Positions 3,967-29,791 of a stretch of DNA of 64,000 bases are shown piece after piece. Positions within the stretch are counted from its first letter, which is position 1; the number at the start of each line of letters is the position of its first letter. Both the position numbers and the translations under genes were made by a program. The notes beneath the pieces are model-generated. The model was not told the DNA's origin. It ran no database searches and saw only the letters and a list, made by a program, of their open reading frames with translations. The DNA comes from Streptacidiphilus sp. ASG 303 (GTDB lineage: Bacteria; Actinomycetota; Actinomycetes; Streptomycetales; Streptomycetaceae), in assembly GCF_020991365.1 (NCBI RefSeq), contig NZ_JAJLRA010000006.1, forward strand, positions 124,001 through 188,000, in the 5' to 3' direction.

Positions 3967-5265
3967 GTGCGCGAGCCGACCGCGAGCGGCAGGCCGGCGG
4001 CCCGGCCCGCCCCCGCGTCGCAGCAGACCATGCGCCGGCAGAACCTCGGCCTGGTGCTGCAGCAGGTCGCGGCGGGCGCCGCGGACGGCGCGCCGCCCTC
4101 CCGCGCCGAGGTCGCCGCCGCCAGCGGACTCACCCGCGCCGCCGTCTCCTCCCTGGTGGAGGAGCTGATCGGCGCCGGACTGCTCGCCGAACTGCCCCCC
4201 GCCCCCAGCGGCCGCGTCGGACGGCCCGGCACCGCCCTCACCCTCGACCCCCGGGGGCCGGCCGGGCTCGGCGCCGAGATCGGGGTCGAGCACCTGGCCG
4301 CCTGCCTGGTCGACCTGCGCGGCGAGGCCCGGGTGTGGCGGCGGGTCCCCGCCGACAACCGCGGCCGGCCCCCCGGCGCGGTCCTCGCCGACCTCGCCGC
4401 CCTGCTGCGCGCCATCGCCGCCGAGGCGCCCGGACTGCGCCCCGCCGGCCTCGGCGTCGCGGTGCCCGGCCTGGTCGGGGCCGAGTCCGGACTGGTCCGC
4501 CGGGCCGCCAACCTCGGCTGGTCCGACGTGCCGGTCGTGGCCGGACTGCGCTCGGCGCTGCGCCGGGCGGGGGCCCCGGAGCTGGCGGCGCTGCCGGCCG
4601 AGGCGGACAACGAGGCCAACCTGGGCGGCCTCGCCGAGCTGTGGCTGGGCGGGCACGGCGGCGCGGGCGACTTCGTGCACATCTCGGCGGAGTCCGGTGT
4701 CGGCGCCGCCCTCATCGTCTCCGGGCGGCTCTTCCGCGGCGCCCGCGGCTTCGCCGGGGAGCTGGGGCACGTGCCGGTGGAGCCGGACGGCCCGCCGTGC
4801 GCCTGCGGGGCGCGGGGCTGCCTGGAGCAGTACGCCGGGGAGCGGGCGGTCCTGGCGGCGGCCGGCGCCGGCGCCCGGCGCGGGGAGGGGGGCCTGTCCG
4901 GGGGAGCGGGTGCGGGGACGGGCGGGCGGGGGGACTGGATCGCCCTGCTCGCCGACCGGGCCGCCGACGGCGACCCTGCGGTGCGCGCCGCCCTGGACCG
5001 GGCCGGCACCGCGCTGGGCACCGCCGTCGCCGGGGCGGTCAACCTCATCGACCCGGCCGCGGTGATCCTCGGCGGCGGCTACGCCGAGCTGGGGGAGTGG
5101 CTGCTGCCGGCGATGCGCCGCGAGCTCGCGGCACGGGTCACCGTCCGCCCCTGGTCGGACGACTGGCTGGCGGCCTCCTCCCTCGGCCGCCGCGGCCCGC
5201 TGCTGGGCGCCGCCGTCGGCGTCGTCCGGGCGATCGTGGAGGACCCGGGGCGGTTCACCGGCTGA
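3967..5265 (+). CDS. ROK family transcriptional regulator/sugar kinase-like protein
   Basis: A 432-aa protein with an N-terminal winged HTH (residues about 18-70: SRAEVAAASGLTRAAVSSLV) and a C-terminal ROK domain. The ROK zinc site is intact: GH at His268, then CACGARGCLE with Cys278, Cys280 and Cys285. ADNEANLGGLAELW and the glycine-rich VILGGGYAELGEW also fit the family. HTH-bearing ROK proteins are usually sugar-responsive repressors (NagC/XylR type). GTG 3967 is chosen because GGAGGA stands 6 nt upstream; a TACCCT box near 3901 could be its promoter. No sugar operon adjoins it, so the target is unknown. Confidence 0.85.
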   Translation: MREPTASGRPAARPAPASQQTMRRQNLGLVLQQVAAGAADGAPPSRAEVAAASGLTRAAVSSLVEELIGAGLLAELPPAPSGRVGRPGTALTLDPRGPAGLGAEIGVEHLAACLVDLRGEARVWRRVPADNRGRPPGAVLADLAALLRAIAAEAPGLRPAGLGVAVPGLVGAESGLVRRAANLGWSDVPVVAGLRSALRRAGAPELAALPAEADNEANLGGLAELWLGGHGGAGDFVHISAESGVGAALIVSGRLFRGARGFAGELGHVPVEPDGPPCACGARGCLEQYAGERAVLAAAGAGARRGEGGLSGGAGAGTGGRGDWIALLADRAADGDPAVRAALDRAGTALGTAVAGAVNLIDPAAVILGGGYAELGEWLLPAMRRELAARVTVRPWSDDWLAASSLGRRGPLLGAAVGVVRAIVEDPGRFTG

Positions 5266-5290
5266 GCCGGCCCGTCGCCGCCCGGCCCCG

Positions 5291-5390
5291 TCCCGCCCGG
5301 TCGCCCCCGCCCGGTCGCCCCCGCCCGCTCGCCCCCGTCCGTCCCGCCCGCTCGCCCCCGTCCGTCCCGCCCGCCCCTCCCGCCCGTCGC
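5291..5390. repeat. Degenerate GC-rich tandem repeat (GTCGCCCCCGCCCG-like)
   Basis: Between the ROK gene and the MarR gene, units close to GGTCGCCCCCGCCC and CTCGCCCCCGTCCGTCCC repeat several times with small changes. No gene is supported here. Slippage-prone spacer DNA is the simplest explanation. Confidence 0.6.
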
Positions 5391-5485
5391 CCCGGGCCGG
5401 CCGCCCCCGTGGTGCGGCCCGGCGGCCCCGGCGGTGGATACTTGGGCCGACGGAACCGCCCAGGAAAACCGGAGGACAGGGCAGC

Positions 5486-5941
5486 GTGGACGTGCGGGAC
5501 GCGGCACCGGAGGACGCCTACCGCTCGGTCGAGCAGGAGCTCGCCCTGCTGTTCCGGCGCGCCAGGGCCCGGGCGACGGAGATGGCCCGGGAGGTGCACC
5601 CGGAGCTGGAGGGCAGCGCCTACCCGCTGCTCGCCTACATCGGGGGCTCGGGCCGGGTCCGGCTCACCGACATCGGCCTGCACTTCGGCGTCGGCAAGGG
5701 CACCGTGAGCCGGCAGATCAAGACGCTGGAGTCGCTGGGGCTGGTCAGCCGGGAGTCCGACCCGCTGGACGGCAGGGTCTACCTGGTCTCGCTCACCGAG
5801 GAGGGCGACCGCCGCTACACCCGCGCCCGGGAGGCGCGGATGGGGTCCATCCGCAGCCTGCTCGGCGCCTGGGAGCCCGCGGACGTCTCCGCCTTCGCCG
5901 GGCTGCTGCACCGCTTCAACGAGCTGATGGAGAGCGGCTGA
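5486..5941 (+). CDS. MarR family transcriptional regulator
   Basis: A 151-aa protein with the MarR winged-helix layout: a helical dimerisation N-terminus (SVEQELALLFRRARARATEM), the recognition region RLTDIGLHFGVGKGTVSRQI, the wing with ESDPLDGRVYLVSLTEEG, and C-terminal helices. MarR proteins are dimeric repressors that usually release DNA when a small phenolic ligand binds. GTG 5486 follows GGAGGACAGG. A GATACT box about 45 nt upstream may be the -10. It ends before a long palindrome, so it is probably monocistronic. Confidence 0.87.
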   Translation: MDVRDAAPEDAYRSVEQELALLFRRARARATEMAREVHPELEGSAYPLLAYIGGSGRVRLTDIGLHFGVGKGTVSRQIKTLESLGLVSRESDPLDGRVYLVSLTEEGDRRYTRAREARMGSIRSLLGAWEPADVSAFAGLLHRFNELMESG

Positions 5942-6000
5942 GGAGGCCGCCCCGGCCGGTCCGGCGGGACGCCCGGCGGGTGCGGCCGGTACGCCCGGCC

Positions 6001-6061
6001 CGGTACGACGACGGCGGAGGGCCGGTGGGAATCCCACCGGCCCTCCGCCGTCGTCGTACCG
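6001..6061. terminator. 29-bp perfect inverted repeat, bidirectional terminator
   Basis: Positions 6001-6029 and 6033-6061 are exact reverse complements, separated by 3 nt (AAT). It lies between two convergent genes, the MarR gene on plus and a small membrane-protein gene on minus. It has no strong U-tract. A stem this long and perfect can terminate both transcripts. Confidence 0.8.
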
Positions 6062-6074
6062 CGGCCGTGCCGTG

Positions 6075-6323
6075 TCAGCGCGCGGCGATCAGGTAGATCC
6101 CGTAGCCGACCGCCGCCGCGCAGGCGGCGAAGCAGACCGCCGCCGCCGCGGCCAGGACGCCGCCCCCGGCCCCCTGGCCCGGGCCGCCGGCCGCGGCCGC
6201 CTCGCGGGCCGCGTCACGGCGGGCGAGGGCGAGACTGCCCAGGGCGAAGACCGCGACCACCGCGACCGTGATGCCGAAGCTGACGCCGGCCGTGCCGGCG
6301 AGCGCACCCCACTTGATCTCCAT
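6075..6323 (-). CDS. Small two-helix membrane protein downstream of pit
   Basis: An 82-aa protein with two hydrophobic segments: VSFGITVAVVAVFALGSLAL near residues 14-33 and LAAAAAVCFAACAAAVGYGI near the end. A charged, Gly-rich loop (ARRDAAREAAAAGGPGQGAG) lies between them. ATG 6323 has a strong AAGGAGGAG site. It starts 32 nt after the phosphate transporter gene on the same strand, so the two probably form one operon. The family is not known to me beyond being a frequent neighbour of pit in streptomycetes; the function is unassigned. Confidence 0.75.
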   Translation of the reverse strand: MEIKWGALAGTAGVSFGITVAVVAVFALGSLALARRDAAREAAAAGGPGQGAGGGVLAAAAAVCFAACAAAVGYGIYLIAAR

Positions 6324-6355
6324 GGGGACTCCTCCTTCTGTCCTGCGGACCGGTG

Positions 6356-7516
6356 TCAGGCGGCGATGCCGGCGGGCGGCGGCGTCGCGGCGGCGGCGGG
6401 CAGGGGCTCGGGCTCCTCGTCGACGACGTTGCCGGAGTGGACCGGGCGGCGGCGGGAGGCGAACCAGACGGCGGCGGAACCCGCCACCAGCAGCACGCCC
6501 ACCACGGCGACGCCGGCGTTGCCGAGCCCGGCGATCCAGGCGGCCGCGCCGCCCACGGCGCCGGCCGCGGGGAGGGTCATGAGCCACGCGTAGACCATGC
6601 GGCGGGCGACGCTCCAGCGGACCTGGCCGCCGGGGGCGCCGAGGCCGGCGCCCATCACGCCGCCGGTGCAGACGTGCGTGGTGGAGAGGCCGAAGCCCAT
6701 GTGGGAGGAGGCCAGGATCACCGAGGTGGCGGCGCTCTCCGAGGAGAAGCCCTGCCGGGGCTCGATGTCGGTGAGGCCCTTGCCCATGGTGCGGATGATC
6801 CGCCAGCCGCCCATGTAGGTGCCCAGGGCGATGGCCAGGCCGGCGCTGAGGATGACCCACAGCGGCGGGCTGGCACCGGCGCCCAGGGAGCCGGCGGAGA
6901 TCAGGGTGAGGGTGATCACGCCCATGGTCTTCTGCGCGTCGTTGGTGCCGTGCGCGAGCGAGATCAGCGACGAGGAGGCGATCTGTCCCAGGCGGAAGCT
7001 CCGGCCGGCGGACTGCTCGGAGGAGCCGCGGGTGATCAGGTAGGCGAGCCTCGTCGCCCCCCAGGAGGCCAGGCCCGCGACGAAGGGGGCCGCCACCGCG
7101 GGGATGAGGATCTTGGTGACGACCGTGTCGAAGTGCACCCCGTGGGTCCCCACGCCGACCAGGGTGGCGCCGATGAGGCCGCCGTACAGGGCGTGCGAGG
7201 AACTGGAGGGCAGGCCGAGGAGCCAGGTCGCCAGGTTCCAGAGGATCGCGCCGGTCAGCGCCGCGAAGATGACCTCGGGGTGGACCCCGGCGCTCTCGTC
7301 GATGATCCCGCCGGAGATCGTCTTGGCGACCTCCACCGAGAGGAAGGCGCCGGCGAGGTTGAGGACGGCCGAGATGGCGACCGCGACCCTGGGTCGCAGG
7401 GCGCCGGTGGCAATCGAGGTCGACATGGCGTTGGCCGTGTCGTGGAAGCCGTTGGTGAAGTCGAAGGCGAGAGCCGTGATGATCACGACGGCCACCAGGA
7501 ACGTGATGTGTTCCAT
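6356..7516 (-). CDS. pit: Low-affinity inorganic phosphate transporter (PiT family)
   Basis: A 386-aa polytopic membrane protein. ALAFDFTNGFHDTANAM is the PiT signature, repeated in inverted form in the C-terminal half as SLAHGTNDAQKTMGVI, and LPSSSSHALYGGLIGA is the other conserved block. It imports phosphate, usually as a metal-phosphate complex, driven by the proton gradient. Start ATG 7516 (MEHITFLV) is favoured; a TTG two codons earlier is possible. No clear ribosome site is visible. PHO-box-like repeats lie about 55-70 nt upstream, which implies control by PhoP under phosphate limitation. Confidence 0.9.
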   Translation of the reverse strand: MEHITFLVAVVIITALAFDFTNGFHDTANAMSTSIATGALRPRVAVAISAVLNLAGAFLSVEVAKTISGGIIDESAGVHPEVIFAALTGAILWNLATWLLGLPSSSSHALYGGLIGATLVGVGTHGVHFDTVVTKILIPAVAAPFVAGLASWGATRLAYLITRGSSEQSAGRSFRLGQIASSSLISLAHGTNDAQKTMGVITLTLISAGSLGAGASPPLWVILSAGLAIALGTYMGGWRIIRTMGKGLTDIEPRQGFSSESAATSVILASSHMGFGLSTTHVCTGGVMGAGLGAPGGQVRWSVARRMVYAWLMTLPAAGAVGGAAAWIAGLGNAGVAVVGVLLVAGSAAVWFASRRRPVHSGNVVDEEPEPLPAAAATPPPAGIAA

Positions 7517-18496: not shown

Positions 18497-19459
18497 TCAG
18501 GCGAGCAGTCCCGAGCGCCGCCAGGCGCGCACCCCGGGGCCGGCCAGGACGCCGATCTCGTCCAGGAAGGAGGTGAGCCGCTGGGCGGCCCACTGCATCG
18601 TGGCCCGCCGGTGCGCGCTCTCCCGCACCTGCCGCAGCGCCTCCTTCGGGTCGAGCCCGACCTCGGCGTAGACCCGGGGGCTGATCAGCGACCGGGCGAC
18701 GACCACGGCCGCCTCGCCGGAGGCGAGCCTGGTCCAGTGCCGCTCCCAGGCGGGGCAGTCCGCCATCTGGCGGCGCAGCTCCTCGCGGGCGTAGCGGACG
18801 TGCCGCGCCTCCTCCACCACGTGGATCCGGGTCACCCCGCGGACCAGCGGCTGCACCGACTCGTCGGGGAAGGTCACCCGCTGCATCTGGTCCAGGATCT
18901 CCTCGACCAGCAGCGTCGCGGTGAACGCGCCGGGGGTGGTGGACACCGTCTTCATGACCCGCCCCAGGAAGTGGGCGAGGCCGGAGGGCCGGTAGACGGG
19001 CGTGCCGAGCTTCCGGATCATCCGGGCGAACATCATGGAGTGCCGGCACTCGTCGGCCATCTCGGTCAGCGCGTAGCGCACGTGCCGGCTGGTGGGGTCG
19101 AGGTCGTAGATGTGCCGGGTGAGCAGCTGCATCAGGATGACCTCGAACCAGATGCCGGCGCCGGCCATGCTGGCGGCCTCGTGGCGGGAGAGGTCGATGC
19201 GCTGCCGCTCGTCCATCCGCTCCCACAGCGGCGTCCCGTGGAGGGAGACCAGGTGCTGGGGCAGGAACCACTTCCCCTCCTCCAGCGGGGCGTCCCAGTC
19301 GAGGTCGGAGTCCGGGTCGAAGGAGTGGCGCCCGGACGCGGCCAGCAGCCGCTCCGCCACCTGCTCGCGGTCCGTCAGCGTCCCCAGCGCGTCGCGCATC
19401 GCGGTCGCCGCCTCCACCGCCCGGTCCGCGTCCGGGCTCTCCAGGGCCCTCATGCCCAT
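18497..19459 (-). CDS. AurF-like diiron oxygenase
   Basis: A 320-aa helical protein of the AurF (p-aminobenzoate N-oxygenase) family. Carboxylate/His iron-ligand patterns are visible: EILMQLL preceded by AGIWFE, EMADECRHSMMFAR (ExxxH), LLVEEILDQ and EEARHVRYAREE (EExxH). Such enzymes oxidise amino groups or related substrates with a dinuclear iron or manganese centre. ATG 19459 follows GAGGGGAT. It lies 88 nt before the TetR gene on the same strand, and its promoter contains a palindrome that is probably the TetR operator. Many streptomycetes carry this pair outside any biosynthetic cluster, so a detoxification or fatty-acyl role is possible. Confidence 0.82.
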   Translation of the reverse strand: MGMRALESPDADRAVEAATAMRDALGTLTDREQVAERLLAASGRHSFDPDSDLDWDAPLEEGKWFLPQHLVSLHGTPLWERMDERQRIDLSRHEAASMAGAGIWFEVILMQLLTRHIYDLDPTSRHVRYALTEMADECRHSMMFARMIRKLGTPVYRPSGLAHFLGRVMKTVSTTPGAFTATLLVEEILDQMQRVTFPDESVQPLVRGVTRIHVVEEARHVRYAREELRRQMADCPAWERHWTRLASGEAAVVVARSLISPRVYAEVGLDPKEALRQVRESAHRRATMQWAAQRLTSFLDEIGVLAGPGVRAWRRSGLLA

Positions 19460-25160: not shown

Positions 25161-25517
25161 TCACCCGCCGCGGCGCAGCAGCGACTCCACCAGGGCCGCC
25201 ACGTGCTGGCGGTCCTGCGCCGAGAGCTGCTTCAGGCTGGCGATCAGCACGTCCACCTCGGGGTCGCGCACCTCGTCGGCGTACAGGTGGATCCCGCAGG
25301 CCTCGGCCGCCGCCCCCCGCACCGCCTCCAGCGGCAGCTCCAGGCCGCGCGCCAGGCCCTCCAGGGTCGCCGGCTGCGGCATGCGGCGGATCTCCTCGAC
25401 GGAGGCGAGGTGGTGGACCGTGGAGCGGGGGATGCCGCCCCGCCGGGCCACCTCGCCGTACGACCAGCCCTGCCGGTCCAGTCGTTCCCGGATCAGCTCC
25501 TGCAACGCGTTGGCCAC
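25161..25517 (-). CDS. XRE-type helix-turn-helix regulator
   Basis: A 118-aa protein with an N-terminal HTH: SYGEVARRGGIPRSTVHHLA (about residues 19-38), then TLEGLARGLELPLEAVRGAA. The C-terminal half is helical (EVDVLIASLKQLSAQDRQHV) and may mediate dimerisation or ligand sensing. It is transcribed away from the two small-peptide genes, which start 307 nt away. The shared intergenic region carries clustered TCCGA/TCGGA palindromes, so it is the best candidate regulator of the peptide locus. Confidence 0.8.
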   Translation of the reverse strand: MANALQELIRERLDRQGWSYGEVARRGGIPRSTVHHLASVEEIRRMPQPATLEGLARGLELPLEAVRGAAAEACGIHLYADEVRDPEVDVLIASLKQLSAQDRQHVAALVESLLRRGG

Positions 25518-25719
25518 TGGTGGTCGCTTCCTGCTCGGGCTCGGGGCGGCCCCAGTCTAGGGCTCGGCCCGGCACGGCCGCCCGCCGCGCTCCCGTGCGC
25601 GCCGCCCCGGGCCGCCGGCCGCGGGCCGCCCGCGACGACCGGGCCGTCGCCCGCTGTTACAGGCCTGTTGCAGAGAGCTGCACGGATTCGGCTTGCGGCA
25701 CCGCCGCCGGCCCGACTAC

Positions 25720-25762
25720 TGTCCAATCTCGTCGGACAGGACGTCCGAACGGATCGGACAGG
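25720..25762. promoter_or_regulatory. Clustered TCGGA palindromes, candidate operator of the peptide locus
   Basis: TCGGACAGG occurs twice as a direct repeat (25732-25740 and 25754-25762), TGTCC stands inverted to them at 25720-25724, and TCCGA-ACGGA-TCGGA forms a palindrome at 25744-25758. A promoter-like TACTGT is at 25717. The cluster lies between the XRE gene and the first peptide gene and about 60 nt before the latter. Confidence 0.5.
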
Positions 25763-25823
25763 CTCGGGGGGGTTCCTGAGCACTTCCGAACGAAACCTGC
25801 CTATCCCTGAGGGGGAGAAGACC

Positions 25824-26039
25824 ATGCTCGACCCGCGTGAGCTCGACGCCGAGTCCGCCGACCTGCTGCCCGGCCGCGAGGCCCTCACCAAGTTCAGCCT
25901 GAACTTCACCAAGGCGATCAACGTCACCAAGCACGTCGCCCACGTGGAGGCGGCCAACAGCTCGCAGGCCGTGAACCAGTGCTCGCCGGGCGCGGTGGCG
26001 CAGGCCTCCGCCGGCCAGTCGATCAGCATCAAGCAGTGA
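25824..26039 (+). CDS. Small peptide 1, candidate precursor (71 aa)
   Basis: No known family recognised. The N-terminal half carries AESADLLPGREALTKFS, identical in peptide 2, which looks like a leader. The second half, beginning NFTKAINVTKHVAHV, is rich in Asn, Gln, Ser, Ala and Val and ends in GQSISIKQ; it has one Cys (VNQCSPG). There is no Sec signal peptide or double-Gly motif. ATG 25824 follows GAGGGGGAGAAG. A 104-nt gap with a small hairpin separates it from peptide 2. Position before an RRE-M50 protein makes it a likely substrate of that protein; this is inference. Confidence 0.75.
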   Translation: MLDPRELDAESADLLPGREALTKFSLNFTKAINVTKHVAHVEAANSSQAVNQCSPGAVAQASAGQSISIKQ

Positions 26040-26044
26040 CGCCG

Positions 26045-26064
26045 GGTCAGGCCGCCGCCTGACC
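26045..26064 (+). other. Hairpin between the two peptide genes
   Basis: GGTCAGG and CCTGACC pair around CCGCCG, starting 5 nt after the stop codon of peptide 1. It is short and lacks a U-tract, so partial attenuation or mRNA 3'-end protection is more likely than full termination. Confidence 0.45.
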
Positions 26065-26143
26065 GCTCACCGCGACCCGTACGGAACCACCCGCCGGCGG
26101 CGGCACGCCCGCCGGCGGGGCACGCAAGGAGAAGAGCACCATC

Positions 26144-26365
26144 ATGAGCATGAACATGGACGAGCTGGCCGCCGAGTCCGCCGACCTGCTGCCCGGCCGC
26201 GAGGCCCTCACCAAGTTCAGCGGCTTCAGCTTCACCAAGACGCTGAACGTCACCAAGCACGTCGCCCACGTGAGCGCCTCCAACGAGTCGCTGGCGCTGA
26301 ACGACCACTCGGTGGGTGCGGTCGCCCAGTCCGCGGCGAACCAGTCCATCTCCATCAGCCAGTAA
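26144..26365 (+). CDS. Small peptide 2, candidate precursor (73 aa)
   Basis: A paralogue of peptide 1. AESADLLPGREALTKFS and NVTKHVAHV are unchanged, and the end SVGAVAQSAANQSISISQ keeps the pattern GAVAQ-x4-QSISI-x-Q. Differences cluster in the middle (SASNESLALNDH against EAANSSQAVNQC); this copy has no Cys. Three ATG codons start the frame (26144, 26150, 26156); the first is best placed behind AAGGAGAAG. A conserved N-terminal half with a variable C-terminal half is the usual pattern of precursor peptides that share one processing enzyme. Confidence 0.75.
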   Translation: MSMNMDELAAESADLLPGREALTKFSGFSFTKTLNVTKHVAHVSASNESLALNDHSVGAVAQSAANQSISISQ

Positions 26366-26465
26366 CAGGCACCACCCGCGGCGGTGGGGGCGAGGCACGA
26401 GTCGCCCCCGCCGCCGCGGCGCACATCGGCCCGCGGGGGAGCGGGCCGCCCAGGGGGAGGACAGC

Positions 26466-28595
26466 ATGACCGCGCTCGGAGAGCCGGGCGGGGACCCGGG
26501 GCCGTACGGGCAGAGCCAGGGCGCCGGGCCGCCGCACTACGACTGGGACGTCTACTACGCCCAGTACCTGCAGGAGCAGCGCTCCGGCGACGGAGGGCCC
26601 CACCAGGCCGCCCAGGTGCCGTACGACCCGTACGGCACCTGGGCGGCCGGGGGCGGGGCCGGCCCCTACGACGACGCGACGGTCCAGGCGCCCACCGTCG
26701 TGCAGCAGCTCGACCCGTACGCCGCCGGCCACCACGCCGCGGACCCGTACGCCGCCGGCCCGGACGCGGCCGGGCCGGAGGCCGACGGCCCCGCGGACGA
26801 GGACGACGACGCCCTGCCGCCCCGGCTCAGCGCCGGCCTGAAGCTCCACGGCGAGTACCGCGGCTCCGGCTTCGCCGAGCCCCGCTACATCGCCCGGCGC
26901 GGCGACGGCCAGGTCGTGCAGCTCACCCGGCTGCTCTACCTGGTCGCGTGCGCCGTCGACGGCGAGCGGGACCGCGAGCGCATCGCCCACCGGGTGAGCG
27001 CCGAGTTCGGCCGCGAGGTCAGCGCGGACAACATCGCCTACCTGCTGGAGAACAAGCTCCAGCCGCTCGGCATCACCGTCCCGCCCGGCCAGGACGACGA
27101 CGAGGTCGACGCCCCGCGCAGCGACCTGCTGCTCAGCCTCAAGGGCCACAAGGTGCTCTTCAACGAGCGCCGGGTCGCCCGCATCTCCCGGTCCCTCTCC
27201 TGGCTCCACCGCCCGGTCTCCGTCGCCGCCGTGCTGCTGACCGCGGTCGGCCTGGACGTCTGGTTCTTCGGCTGGTTCGGCGCCATGACGCCGGTGCTGC
27301 ACACTCTGGAGCAGCCCGTGCTGCTGCTGGTGGTGCTGGGCCTCACCATCGCCTCGATGGTCTTCCACGAGTTCGGCCACGCCTCCGCGTGCCGCTACGG
27401 GGGGGCCCATCCCGGCTGCATCGGCTGCGGGCTGTACCTGATCTGGCCCGCCATGTACACCGACGTCACCGACGTCTACCGGCTCGGCCGGGGCGGCCGC
27501 ATCCGCACCGACCTGGGCGGCATCTACTTCAACGTCGTCTTCATCCTCGGCCTCTTCGGTTGCTACTTCCTGACGGGCCAGCAGGTCTTCCTCGCCGCCG
27601 CCTACCTCGCCCACTTCGAGGTGCTGGAACAGCTGATGCCGGCCCTCCGGCTGGACGGCTACTACATCCTCGGCGACCTGGCCGGCGTCCCCGACCTGTT
27701 CGGCAAGATCAAGCCCATCCTCGTCGGCATGGTGCCGGGCAGGCCGGTCCCGCGGGACGTCGCCGACCTCAAGAAGTCCTCGCGGGTCATCGTCACCGCC
27801 TGGGTGCTGATGATGGTCCCCCTGGTCGTCGGCGAGCTGTCGTACGCCCTGTGGAACCTGCCCCGCATCCTCTCCACCGCGGAGCGCTCCCTCGTGGACC
27901 AGGTCGCCGGCACCGCCGCGGCCTTCCGGGAGGGCCAGGTCGCCGAGTCCGTCCTCGGCGTCGTCGGCTCGGTCCTGCTGATCCTCCCGACGTGCGGTAT
28001 CGCGTACCTCGTCATCCGCGTCGGCCACCGGCTGATCGGCGCGGCCCGCAAGGGCACCGCCGGCCGGCCCGCCGCCCGGATCGGACTGCTCGTCGGGATC
28101 GGCTGCGTCGGCGCGGTCCTCGTCGGCGCCTGGACCCACGGCCTCACCCCGAAGCCGCTGCCGCCCCGGCCGCCGATCGTCCCCGCCCTGCAGCCCAACC
28201 TGCCGCCGCGGCCCACCCCGAGCGCCGGCCCGTCCACACCGGCGCCCAGCCGCCGCCCCGGCCGGTCCGCGGTCGAGCAGCCCACCGCGCCCGCCGCGCC
28301 GTCGCCGTCCGCGAGCGCCACGATCCCGGCGAGGAGGGGCTCCGCCTCCCCGAAGGCCTCACCGAGCGCCTCGGCCTCCCGGCCAGCGCCCTCGGCCTCC
28401 GGCAGCGCCTCCGCCCCGCCCCCGGGCCCGGGCCCGAGCACGCCGCCCCCGACGCCGGGGCCGTCCACGCCGGCCCCCACGCCCACGACGCCCGGCCCGT
28501 CCACGACGCCGCCCCCGTCGCCCGGCCCCACCACGACTCCCCCTGATTCCACTCCGCCGCCGTCCACCCCCGCCCCCGGACCGGCGACCAGCTGA
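26466..28595 (+). CDS. PqqD/RRE-like domain fused to M50-type membrane metalloprotease
   Basis: A 709-aa protein in four parts. Residues 1-130 are Tyr/Pro/Gly-rich and disordered. Residues about 140-205 (VVQLTRLLYLVACAVDGERD, then IAHRVSAEFGREVSADNIAY) resemble the PqqD/RRE winged helix that binds peptide leaders. Residues 240-560 contain six or seven membrane helices, with HEFGH (301-305) and LRLDGYYILGD (Asp397) forming an M50 zinc site. A Pro/Ser/Thr tail of about 145 residues ends the protein. This architecture is annotated elsewhere as putative peptide zinc metalloprotease. It lies 100 nt after two small peptide genes and probably recognises, cleaves or exports them. Confidence 0.8.
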   Translation: MTALGEPGGDPGPYGQSQGAGPPHYDWDVYYAQYLQEQRSGDGGPHQAAQVPYDPYGTWAAGGGAGPYDDATVQAPTVVQQLDPYAAGHHAADPYAAGPDAAGPEADGPADEDDDALPPRLSAGLKLHGEYRGSGFAEPRYIARRGDGQVVQLTRLLYLVACAVDGERDRERIAHRVSAEFGREVSADNIAYLLENKLQPLGITVPPGQDDDEVDAPRSDLLLSLKGHKVLFNERRVARISRSLSWLHRPVSVAAVLLTAVGLDVWFFGWFGAMTPVLHTLEQPVLLLVVLGLTIASMVFHEFGHASACRYGGAHPGCIGCGLYLIWPAMYTDVTDVYRLGRGGRIRTDLGGIYFNVVFILGLFGCYFLTGQQVFLAAAYLAHFEVLEQLMPALRLDGYYILGDLAGVPDLFGKIKPILVGMVPGRPVPRDVADLKKSSRVIVTAWVLMMVPLVVGELSYALWNLPRILSTAERSLVDQVAGTAAAFREGQVAESVLGVVGSVLLILPTCGIAYLVIRVGHRLIGAARKGTAGRPAARIGLLVGIGCVGAVLVGAWTHGLTPKPLPPRPPIVPALQPNLPPRPTPSAGPSTPAPSRRPGRSAVEQPTAPAAPSPSASATIPARRGSASPKASPSASASRPAPSASGSASAPPPGPGPSTPPPTPGPSTPAPTPTTPGPSTTPPPSPGPTTTPPDSTPPPSTPAPGPATS

Positions 28596-28626
28596 ACCAC
28601 CGACCCACGCACACCGGAGACACACC

Positions 28627-29361
28627 GTGAAGCACAGCAACCACCGCAAGCCGCGCCAGCAGCGCGCCCAGCAGGTCCTGCGCCTGGGGCTGCTCGCCAC
28701 CGCCGGGCTCGCCGCGGTCGCCACCGCCGCCCCGGCCCAGGCCGCCACCACCGCGGCGCCCCAGGGGGGATCCGGGCTCACCATGCCCGAGGTCCACGTC
28801 CACGCCGACACCGCGCTCAGCAACGCCAACCGGCTGCACACCCGCGACTTCCGCACGTCCTTCGCCATCCACGAGTACGGCGACACCGTCGGGGCCGGCA
28901 TCGCCAACCGGGCCTACGCCTCCTCCGTCGGCTGCAACGGCTCCGACCACTGCCGCTCGGTCGCGCTCTCCTTCCAGATCGTGACCATGGGCGGCAGCCA
29001 CACCCACCTGAACGCCAGCAACGTCAGCAAGGCCGTCAACAACCACTGCACGGGCTGCGAGACGATGGCCGGCGCCTACCAGTTCATCGTGGACACCCCG
29101 CAGGCGATGCACCTCACCAGCTCGGACCGCGCCAAGCTCACCGCGATCCAGCACGAGCTCGCCTCCCTGCGCGGCACCACGGACTCGCCCGCCGTGCTCA
29201 AGCAGAAGGCCGACGCCCTGGCGGGCCGGGTCGTCGCGGTCCTCAGGTCCGCCGCCGCGCGCACGCCGTCCAGGCCCGCGCCCACCCGGGCGGGCTTCTT
29301 CGCTTCGCCCACCTCGCCGAGGATCACCGTCCACTCCCTGATGGACGGCTGGCCGTCCTAG
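28627..29361 (+). CDS. Secreted protein of the peptide locus
   Basis: A 244-aa protein with a Sec signal peptide: a basic N-terminus, LGLLATAGLAAVATA, and a probable cut after AQA near residue 40. The mature part has two Cys pairs (GCNGSDHCRS and HCTGCETM). No known domain is recognised. Residues about 129-155 (ASNVSKAVNNHCTG onward) resemble the variable half of the two small peptides. GTG 28627 follows CCGGAG, 31 nt after the metalloprotease gene, so the genes form one operon. It may be an exported partner or a further substrate. Confidence 0.7.
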   Translation: MKHSNHRKPRQQRAQQVLRLGLLATAGLAAVATAAPAQAATTAAPQGGSGLTMPEVHVHADTALSNANRLHTRDFRTSFAIHEYGDTVGAGIANRAYASSVGCNGSDHCRSVALSFQIVTMGGSHTHLNASNVSKAVNNHCTGCETMAGAYQFIVDTPQAMHLTSSDRAKLTAIQHELASLRGTTDSPAVLKQKADALAGRVVAVLRSAAARTPSRPAPTRAGFFASPTSPRITVHSLMDGWPS

Positions 29362-29524: not shown

Positions 29525-29791
29525 ATGTCTGCGAAGACCACCAACCGCCAGGACCAGCACGACCGCAACCAGCAGGACCGCAACCAGCAGCGCGCCGGCC
29601 GCCAGGAGTGGCGCCGGAGCAGCCACAGCAACGGCAGCGGTGCCTGCGTCGAGGTCGCGCCCACGCCGGACGGCGGCGCCTCGATCCGCGACTCGCGGAA
29701 CCCCCAGGGCGCGGTCCTGACCTTCCAGGCCAACGAGTGGCGCGCCTTCCTCGACGGCGCCCGCGACGGCGAGTTCCACCGCATGTCCTGA
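29525..29791 (+). CDS. DUF397 domain protein
   Basis: An 88-aa protein. A Gln/Asn/Arg-rich N-terminus is followed by the DUF397 domain: WRRSSHSNGSGACVEVAP, then IRDSRNPQGAVLTF and EWRAFLDGARDGEF. DUF397 proteins usually sit beside a large XRE regulator and act with it, BldB/AbaA-like, in development or secondary metabolism. Here no XRE gene is adjacent; the nearest is 4 kb away on the other strand. ATG 29525 has an AAGGAGACGACG site. Confidence 0.85.
   Translation: MSAKTTNRQDQHDRNQQDRNQQRAGRQEWRRSSHSNGSGACVEVAPTPDGGASIRDSRNPQGAVLTFQANEWRAFLDGARDGEFHRMS

Follow-up and report, generated by a model that had tools for sequence, protein, structure and literature searches.

A candidate locus for maturation, release and assembly of small leader-bearing peptides in Streptacidiphilus and other Actinomycetota

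We describe a five-gene cassette located at positions 25161-29361 of a 64,000-nucleotide stretch of the genome of Streptacidiphilus sp. ASG 303 (the window), which could be a self-contained locus of Actinomycetota for the maturation, release and assembly of small peptides. The cassette encodes an XRE-type regulator, two paralogous precursor peptides, a predicted membrane protease in which a recognition element of ribosomally synthesized and post-translationally modified peptides (RiPPs), the RRE domain, is fused to an M50 protease, and a secreted partner protein. Comparison supports a conserved locus, the RRE and M50 folds, conservation of the leader, a module common to the peptides and the partner, fusion of the partner to the protease, and a dedicated operator. 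We assign a rough probability of 40-50% to the full reading including assembly. The genes of the cassette are as follows (aa, amino acids):

25161..25517, minus strand: XRE-type regulator, 118 aa (HTH_3, 27.4 bits), divergent from the peptide operon
25824..26039, plus strand: precursor peptide 1, 71 aa, leader with LLPGREAL and C-terminal, predicted two-strand core module
26144..26365, plus strand: precursor peptide 2, 73 aa, paralogue of peptide 1
26466..28595, plus strand: predicted RRE-M50 fusion protease, 709 aa, carrying HEFGH and RLDGY
28627..29361, plus strand: secreted partner, 244 aa, with a Sec-type signal peptide, two peptide-like modules with Cys pairs, a helical hairpin and a C-terminal strand

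Conservation of the cassette

A check of the open reading frames (ORFs) of the window recovered all five genes at the positions given in a preliminary description of this DNA, and chance ORFs were ruled out because the genes are conserved and show a corresponding substitution pattern. That description had treated the five genes as one unit, which agrees with the synteny of the whole cassette in Peterkaempfera griseoplana. Furthermore, the same arrangement of genes (XRE, peptide(s), RRE-M50, secreted protein) is seen repeatedly in Streptomycetaceae. A genome search detected the peptide in 45 of 298 Streptomycetaceae genomes, mostly as a tandem pair, and when the neighbourhoods of 54 peptide loci from this family were compared, the RRE-M50 gene was found directly downstream in 47, with the secreted partner also present in most loci and the XRE gene in many. 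The seven peptide loci that lack RRE-M50 include three at contig ends and four orphan copies in genomes that carry a full cassette elsewhere. One copy resides on a linear Streptomyces plasmid, and full-length relatives of the RRE-M50 protein were identified in about 27 of 396 actinobacterial genomes in a phylum-wide search. The peptides evolve under purifying selection, with a ratio of nonsynonymous to synonymous substitution rates (dN/dS) of about 0.4, and selection on the protease core is stronger (0.13).

Clustering of ORFs within approximately 5 kb in 44 loci revealed no other gene family that recurs at comparable frequency, and therefore no conserved modifying enzyme or transporter within that distance. 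In the window, none of the genes for radical SAM enzymes, LanB, YcaO or ABC transporters adjoins the cassette, in line with the preliminary description, which had reported radical SAM, lanthionine, YcaO and ABC transporter genes to be missing. Neither the peptides nor the secreted partner matched any Pfam or NCBIfam family, and a literature search using motif strings and actinobacterial amyloid or site-2-protease peptide systems retrieved no description, with most subscription papers and all supplements lying outside its coverage.

The copy number of the peptide varies among the loci, with three copies in L048 and one in L084. The genome of Streptacidiphilus sp. ASG 303 itself harbors a second full cassette on another contig (L042, 7066-10332), consisting of a single peptide gene, RRE-M50 and the secreted partner, with no adjoining XRE gene detected, as well as two orphan peptide copies with no protease nearby (L041, 6596-6808, and L043, 7239-7448), the former located just downstream of an apparent ABC-transporter ORF (4495-6450). 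In the comparison with P. griseoplana, the dS of the peptide genes (0.17-0.20, from few sites) is well under that of the protease gene (0.46), hinting that the peptide genes are additionally constrained at the level of RNA or codons.

The predicted protease and the leader

Structural modeling and alignment delineate three parts of the 709-aa protein:

26811..27089, plus strand: predicted RRE domain, approximately aa 116-208, three strands and three helices (AlphaFold2 model, fold matches)
27168..28145, plus strand: predicted M50 membrane domain, about seven hydrophobic segments, HEFGH at aa 301-305 and the invariant D397 of RLDGY (alignment, SpoIVFB fold match)
28146..28592, plus strand: Pro/Ser/Thr-rich tail, putatively extracellular (3' of the last hydrophobic segment; positive-inside loops)

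Pfam recognised neither the RRE nor the M50 domain in the window protein, and its M50 profile matched weakly in 15 of 41 family members; the RRE region yielded no match to Pfam PqqD, so that sequence profiles alone would have rejected an RRE. A search of the PDB sequences with the protease profile gave a single match, which was judged to be due to chance. NCBIfam NF041824 (daptide protease), in turn, showed distant homology over both the RRE and M50 parts in all 41 aligned members (best, 7.7e-30), the window protein scoring 79.1 bits (E = 3.5e-22) and not reaching the equivalog cut-off of 300 bits; NF058609 (EpeP/YydH) showed weak similarity to the M50 core (43 bits). In the AlphaFold2 model (mean predicted local distance difference test, pLDDT, 80.6), the N-terminal domain has a winged-helix fold with the topology strand-strand-strand-helix-helix-helix, and its best fold matches are TbiB1 with leader (Z 8.5) and PqqD (Z 7.7), followed by TruD, CteB and ThcOx (Z 6.5-7.1), with TglHI also lower than PqqD. 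The membrane part matches SpoIVFB (Z 8.2). A Z of about 8 is middling, yet the top matches all belong to one functional family and are informative to that extent. Thus, by its predicted fold, the protein appears to be an RRE fused to an M50 protease: the PqqD/RRE-like domain joined to M50, as put forward in the preliminary description, is upheld by the fold matches and the similarity to NF041824, and only the expected resemblance to the PqqD profile is not. Unlike in TbiB1, PqqD, TruD, CteB and ThcOx, the RRE here is joined to a membrane protease and has no modifying enzyme in its vicinity.

The HExxH motif and the distal Asp (HEFGH and RLDGY) are invariant in 41 sequences. Hydropathy analysis delineates seven hydrophobic segments, and because the Lys/Arg-rich loops lie on one side, the positive-inside rule places the RRE inside the cell and, most likely, the tail and the partner outside. 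Proteases without the long, putatively extracellular tail are encoded in L045, L051, L057 and L090.

The two window peptides have AESADLLPGREALTKFS in common, as expected from the identical leader-like halves that had been reported for these 71-73 aa peptides, and differ mainly in their C-terminal halves; LLPxREAL is invariant in 83 aligned peptides. We examined 26 RRE-M50 loci of other actinobacterial families with a regular expression applied to the same strand, up to 1 kb upstream of the protease gene, and identified a short ORF with the leader L..EELE....LP.RE or a close form in 22 of them, against a background of 6.9% for random stretches of the same loci. Inspection added three loci, two with the leader ORF on the opposite strand (L126 and L127) and one (L130) with the variant ELEGLTGELLPERAVLS, which the regular expression missed, so that a leader-bearing ORF accompanies the distant protease in 25 of 26 cases, L129 being the only one without it. 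The co-occurrence of the peptides and the M50 protein, which the preliminary description had proposed to check, is thus seen both in these loci and in the 47 of 54 peptide loci mentioned above.

Behind the constant leader, the cores differ: some have the two-strand module, others are of a GIAANVC or an LLGLP..GV..VNVDTTGP type, and those of Streptomyces changanensis and a related genome are Gly/His-rich and end in Cys-containing segments. A leader that stays fixed while the cores change is what would be expected if the RRE reads the leader. The original suggestion that the fusion protein binds the leaders and cuts or exports the peptides is partly supported, in that neither of the two refuting conditions named with it came true: relatives of the protease nearly always have such a peptide close by, and the N-terminal region has the RRE fold. 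This strong comparative evidence, together with the family precedent of MpaP, the daptide protease in which an RRE is likewise joined to a site-2 protease (PMC10036551), makes the processing step, that is, capture of the leader by the RRE and cleavage by M50, probable. Separately, variant precursors with the leader GELLPERAVLS and Gly/His-rich cores with Cys-containing ends were observed in L004 (3903-4145 and 5780-6076) and L130 (5643-6515), representing a different product with the same type of protease.

The cassette resembles the terminal part of the daptide and epipeptide pathways and is a member of neither, given that no modifying enzyme or transporter is conserved. Like mpa of Microbacterium paraoxydans, it combines an N-terminal RRE with M50, homologous over both parts, and several short precursors with a conserved leader motif. 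Unlike in daptides, however, the protease scores about 79 bits against the 300-bit cut-off of NF041824; the MpaB/C/D/M modification genes and an ABC transporter are missing from the window locus; the leader is EELE....LP.RE (LLPxREAL) rather than ELExMEAP; the core ends in Gln whereas the daptide precursor ends in an invariant Thr; and there is a secreted partner that carries a peptide-like module. Oxidative decarboxylase, MpaB-type, aminotransferase and methyltransferase genes neither adjoin the window locus nor recur in the 44 loci. With epeXEPAB (yydFGHIJ) of Bacillus subtilis, the cassette shares a weakly similar M50 core, EpeP (YydH) being thought to cleave and also export its small peptide (PMC10885120), but it differs from epipeptide loci in having no radical SAM epimerase, either near the window locus or recurring across the 44 loci, and no ABC transporter, and in possessing an RRE and a secreted partner. 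Membership in either class was ruled out by the absent genes, the scores, the leader motif and the precursor end. The earlier view that the locus fits no RiPP class holds with respect to daptides and epipeptides, except that the RRE/site-2-protease fusion has a precedent in MpaP.

Core module, secreted partner and operator

In the C-terminal half of the 83 aligned peptides, the even alignment columns of 42-54 and 60-74 all exceed all of the odd ones in conservation (permutation p = 5e-5, the lower limit of this test). The conserved even columns hold A, V, A, N, S, A, N (42-54) and A/S, A, S, A, Q, I, I, Q (60-74), and the turn between them contains a conserved Ser. Distant precursors of other families share the spacing N.A.A.N..S..S.A.A.A.Q...I.Q, with the module occurring once in peptides of about 70 aa and twice in larger ones of about 140-250 aa. 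The core is predicted to form two amphipathic beta strands, one face of which would be buried. A small ORF without the leader, K.V.K......NVAGD.NAAV.ANVG....SSRQR..QR, which is possibly another module-bearing protein, recurs upstream of the peptides in L123, L124, L125, L128, L129, L133 and L139.

The secreted partner appears to carry the same module. Comparison of the peptide and partner profiles with hhalign gave P = 1.6e-4 over 29 ungapped columns, with a probability of 51%, and the partner strands 39-51 and 77-89 (the first of each pair) alternate in conservation as the peptides do, with similar residues (AINAAS and LANSAN) on the conserved face. Where the peptides have the turn Ser, the partner has the Cys pairs C-x5-C and C-x2-C; these do not vary among 40 sequences and might lock the turns through disulfide bonds. 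The AlphaFold2 model of the partner (pLDDT 92) contains six strands, each 12-14 residues long, a helical hairpin and, at the end, one further strand. In seven distant loci (L131, L132, L135-L137, L141 and L142), the partner domain has no gene of its own and instead continues the protease beyond its last membrane segment. Moreover, 9 of 10 partner-bearing genomes in the phylum sample also encode the protease, compared with 27 of 396 overall (Fisher p = 7e-11); the tenth partner gene is located at a contig end. The signal-peptide protein thus belongs to the unit, as previously proposed, and the module in common with the peptides and the fusion to the protease in distant relatives indicate that it is no bystander. 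The common module further suggests joint assembly of peptides and partner outside the cell.

Transcription of the peptides could be controlled from the intergenic region between the XRE gene and peptide 1, in which the following elements were recognised:

25693..25698, plus strand: candidate -35 hexamer TTGCGG, 18-bp spacer to the -10 TACTGT at 25717-25722 (sequence reading)
25720..25738, no strand: 19-bp operator palindrome TGTCCAATCTCGTCGGACA, overlapping the candidate -10 box
25743..25759, no strand: second operator-like inverted repeat GTCCGAACGGATCGGAC, kept beside the first in most loci

This region holds TGTCCAATCTCGTYGGACA over the candidate -10 box, followed by the second inverted repeat. 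The arrangement CTTGCG...TAGTGT/TACTGT occurs in many of 34 promoter regions, and the operator core CCAATCTC in all 34 divergent promoters. In three members of the genus, the operator (up to two mismatches) was found exactly once per genome, at the cassette, and the reversed control not at all. Being single-copy and confined to this locus, the operator looks like a private switch of the peptide promoter, and from its position, the XRE protein is the probable ligand. A second inverted-repeat-like element lies on the XRE side (window 25650-25680: CTGTTAC..GTTGCAGAGAG / CTCTCTGTT...GTTACAGAGAG) and is also found in the same region of L054, L074, L076, L083, L087 and L089.

The flanking genes are housekeeping ones (DUF885, PfkB, tRNA-Arg, a response regulator, argS and lysA). 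A DUF397 gene 3' of the cassette (29525-29791) is kept at that place in the genus only; in Streptomyces, DUF397 proteins are frequently paired with XRE regulators. The window also encodes an AurF-type diiron N-oxygenase (18497-19459, minus strand; 7.6e-99) that has no relation to the cassette.

Proposed mechanism, alternatives and meaning

Under the proposed mechanism, the divergent XRE protein would switch the peptide promoter through the dedicated palindrome. The RRE domain of the membrane protease would bind the precursor leader (L..EELE....LP.RE.L) in the cytoplasm, the fused M50 domain would cut the precursor near the leader end, and the core might then leave the cell via the protease or alongside it, by the route put forward for EpeP (PMC10885120). 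Outside, each core could fold into a pair of amphipathic beta strands presenting an alternating face of Ala, Asn, Ser, Gln and Ile and join the secreted partner, whose two module copies, putatively pinned by disulfides, would make it a nucleator or anchor of a cell-surface complex or fibre rich in beta structure.

Several observations weigh against the assembly part of this proposal. The module match between the peptides and the partner is moderate, at an hhalign probability of 51%, and structure comparison of the partner model returned no significant match to any solved fold. In some relatives, the cores lack the module (the Gly/His-rich, GIAANVC and LLGLP..GV types) and no partner was detected, so that assembly may be confined to one branch. 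The likeness to curli (CsgA/CsgB) and FapC, that is, short alternating beta strands, conserved Asn/Gln/Ser/Ala and a same-repeat partner that possibly nucleates, is an analogy only, and their secretion route is entirely different. Pfam curlin gave no match, and the CsgA and FapC fibrils appeared in the fold lists at noise level (Z 3.1, root-mean-square deviation 7.9; Foldseek probability 0.02); they were not used as support, and fold comparison therefore lends none to amyloid-like assembly. Neither sequence nor fold comparison gave a significant match to curli or another known amyloid.

The peptides might instead be unmodified secreted antimicrobials or signals, such as bacteriocin or pheromone pairs, matured and exported by RRE-M50, with the partner recognising the core via the common module and serving as its immunity protein, decoy or receptor. 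The small paralogous pairs, the patchy distribution on plasmid or chromosome, the dedicated XRE switch and the EpeP-like protease would all suit such a role. However, the cores read as neither strongly hydrophobic nor cationic, their invariant face and variable exposed face suit stacking better than membrane attack, and fusion of an immunity protein to the protease, as seen for the partner in distant relatives, would be odd; we consider this explanation unlikely. It is more doubtful still that the product is a true RiPP with its modifying enzymes encoded at another place in the genome, the locus contributing no more than the precursor, the leader peptidase and a carrier. RRE domains usually bring leaders to modifying enzymes and the fusion protein is homologous to MpaP, but no family of modifying genes recurs within about 5 kb across the 44 loci, none adjoins the window locus, and the residues that are invariant in the core (Ala, Asn, Ser, Gln, Ile) follow an alternating structural pattern and form no reactive motif. 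Many M50 proteases are signalling proteases and an XRE gene with a dedicated operator adjoins this one, yet a regulatory intramembrane proteolysis circuit, in which the peptides regulate or inhibit the protease and the real output is the XRE protein or another factor, seems very improbable, given that the precursors consist of a leader and a beta module resembling the one in the secreted partner and that the large two-module precursors of distant loci are hard to see as simple inhibitors.

Returning to maturation, release and assembly, we tentatively raise the rather doubtful possibility that the cassette represents a new route for an extracellular beta-rich fibre or coat in Actinomycetota, in which unmodified subunits would carry a RiPP-type leader, an RRE-site-2 protease would mature and release them, and polymerisation would proceed on a secreted or protease-tethered partner with the same module. 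If true, fibres would here be secreted and assembled by a system that has no relation to curli, Fap, TasA or chaplins. The partner's common module and its fusion to the protease provide a directly testable hypothesis for the hand-over of small cores outside the cell. The peptide family, found in about one-seventh of the Streptomycetaceae genomes sampled, is widespread, yet we found no description of it in the literature covered. RRE domains are taken to indicate peptide modification; a large actinobacterial family that pairs an RRE with a membrane protease alone implies that leader-directed addressing may serve release or assembly besides chemistry.

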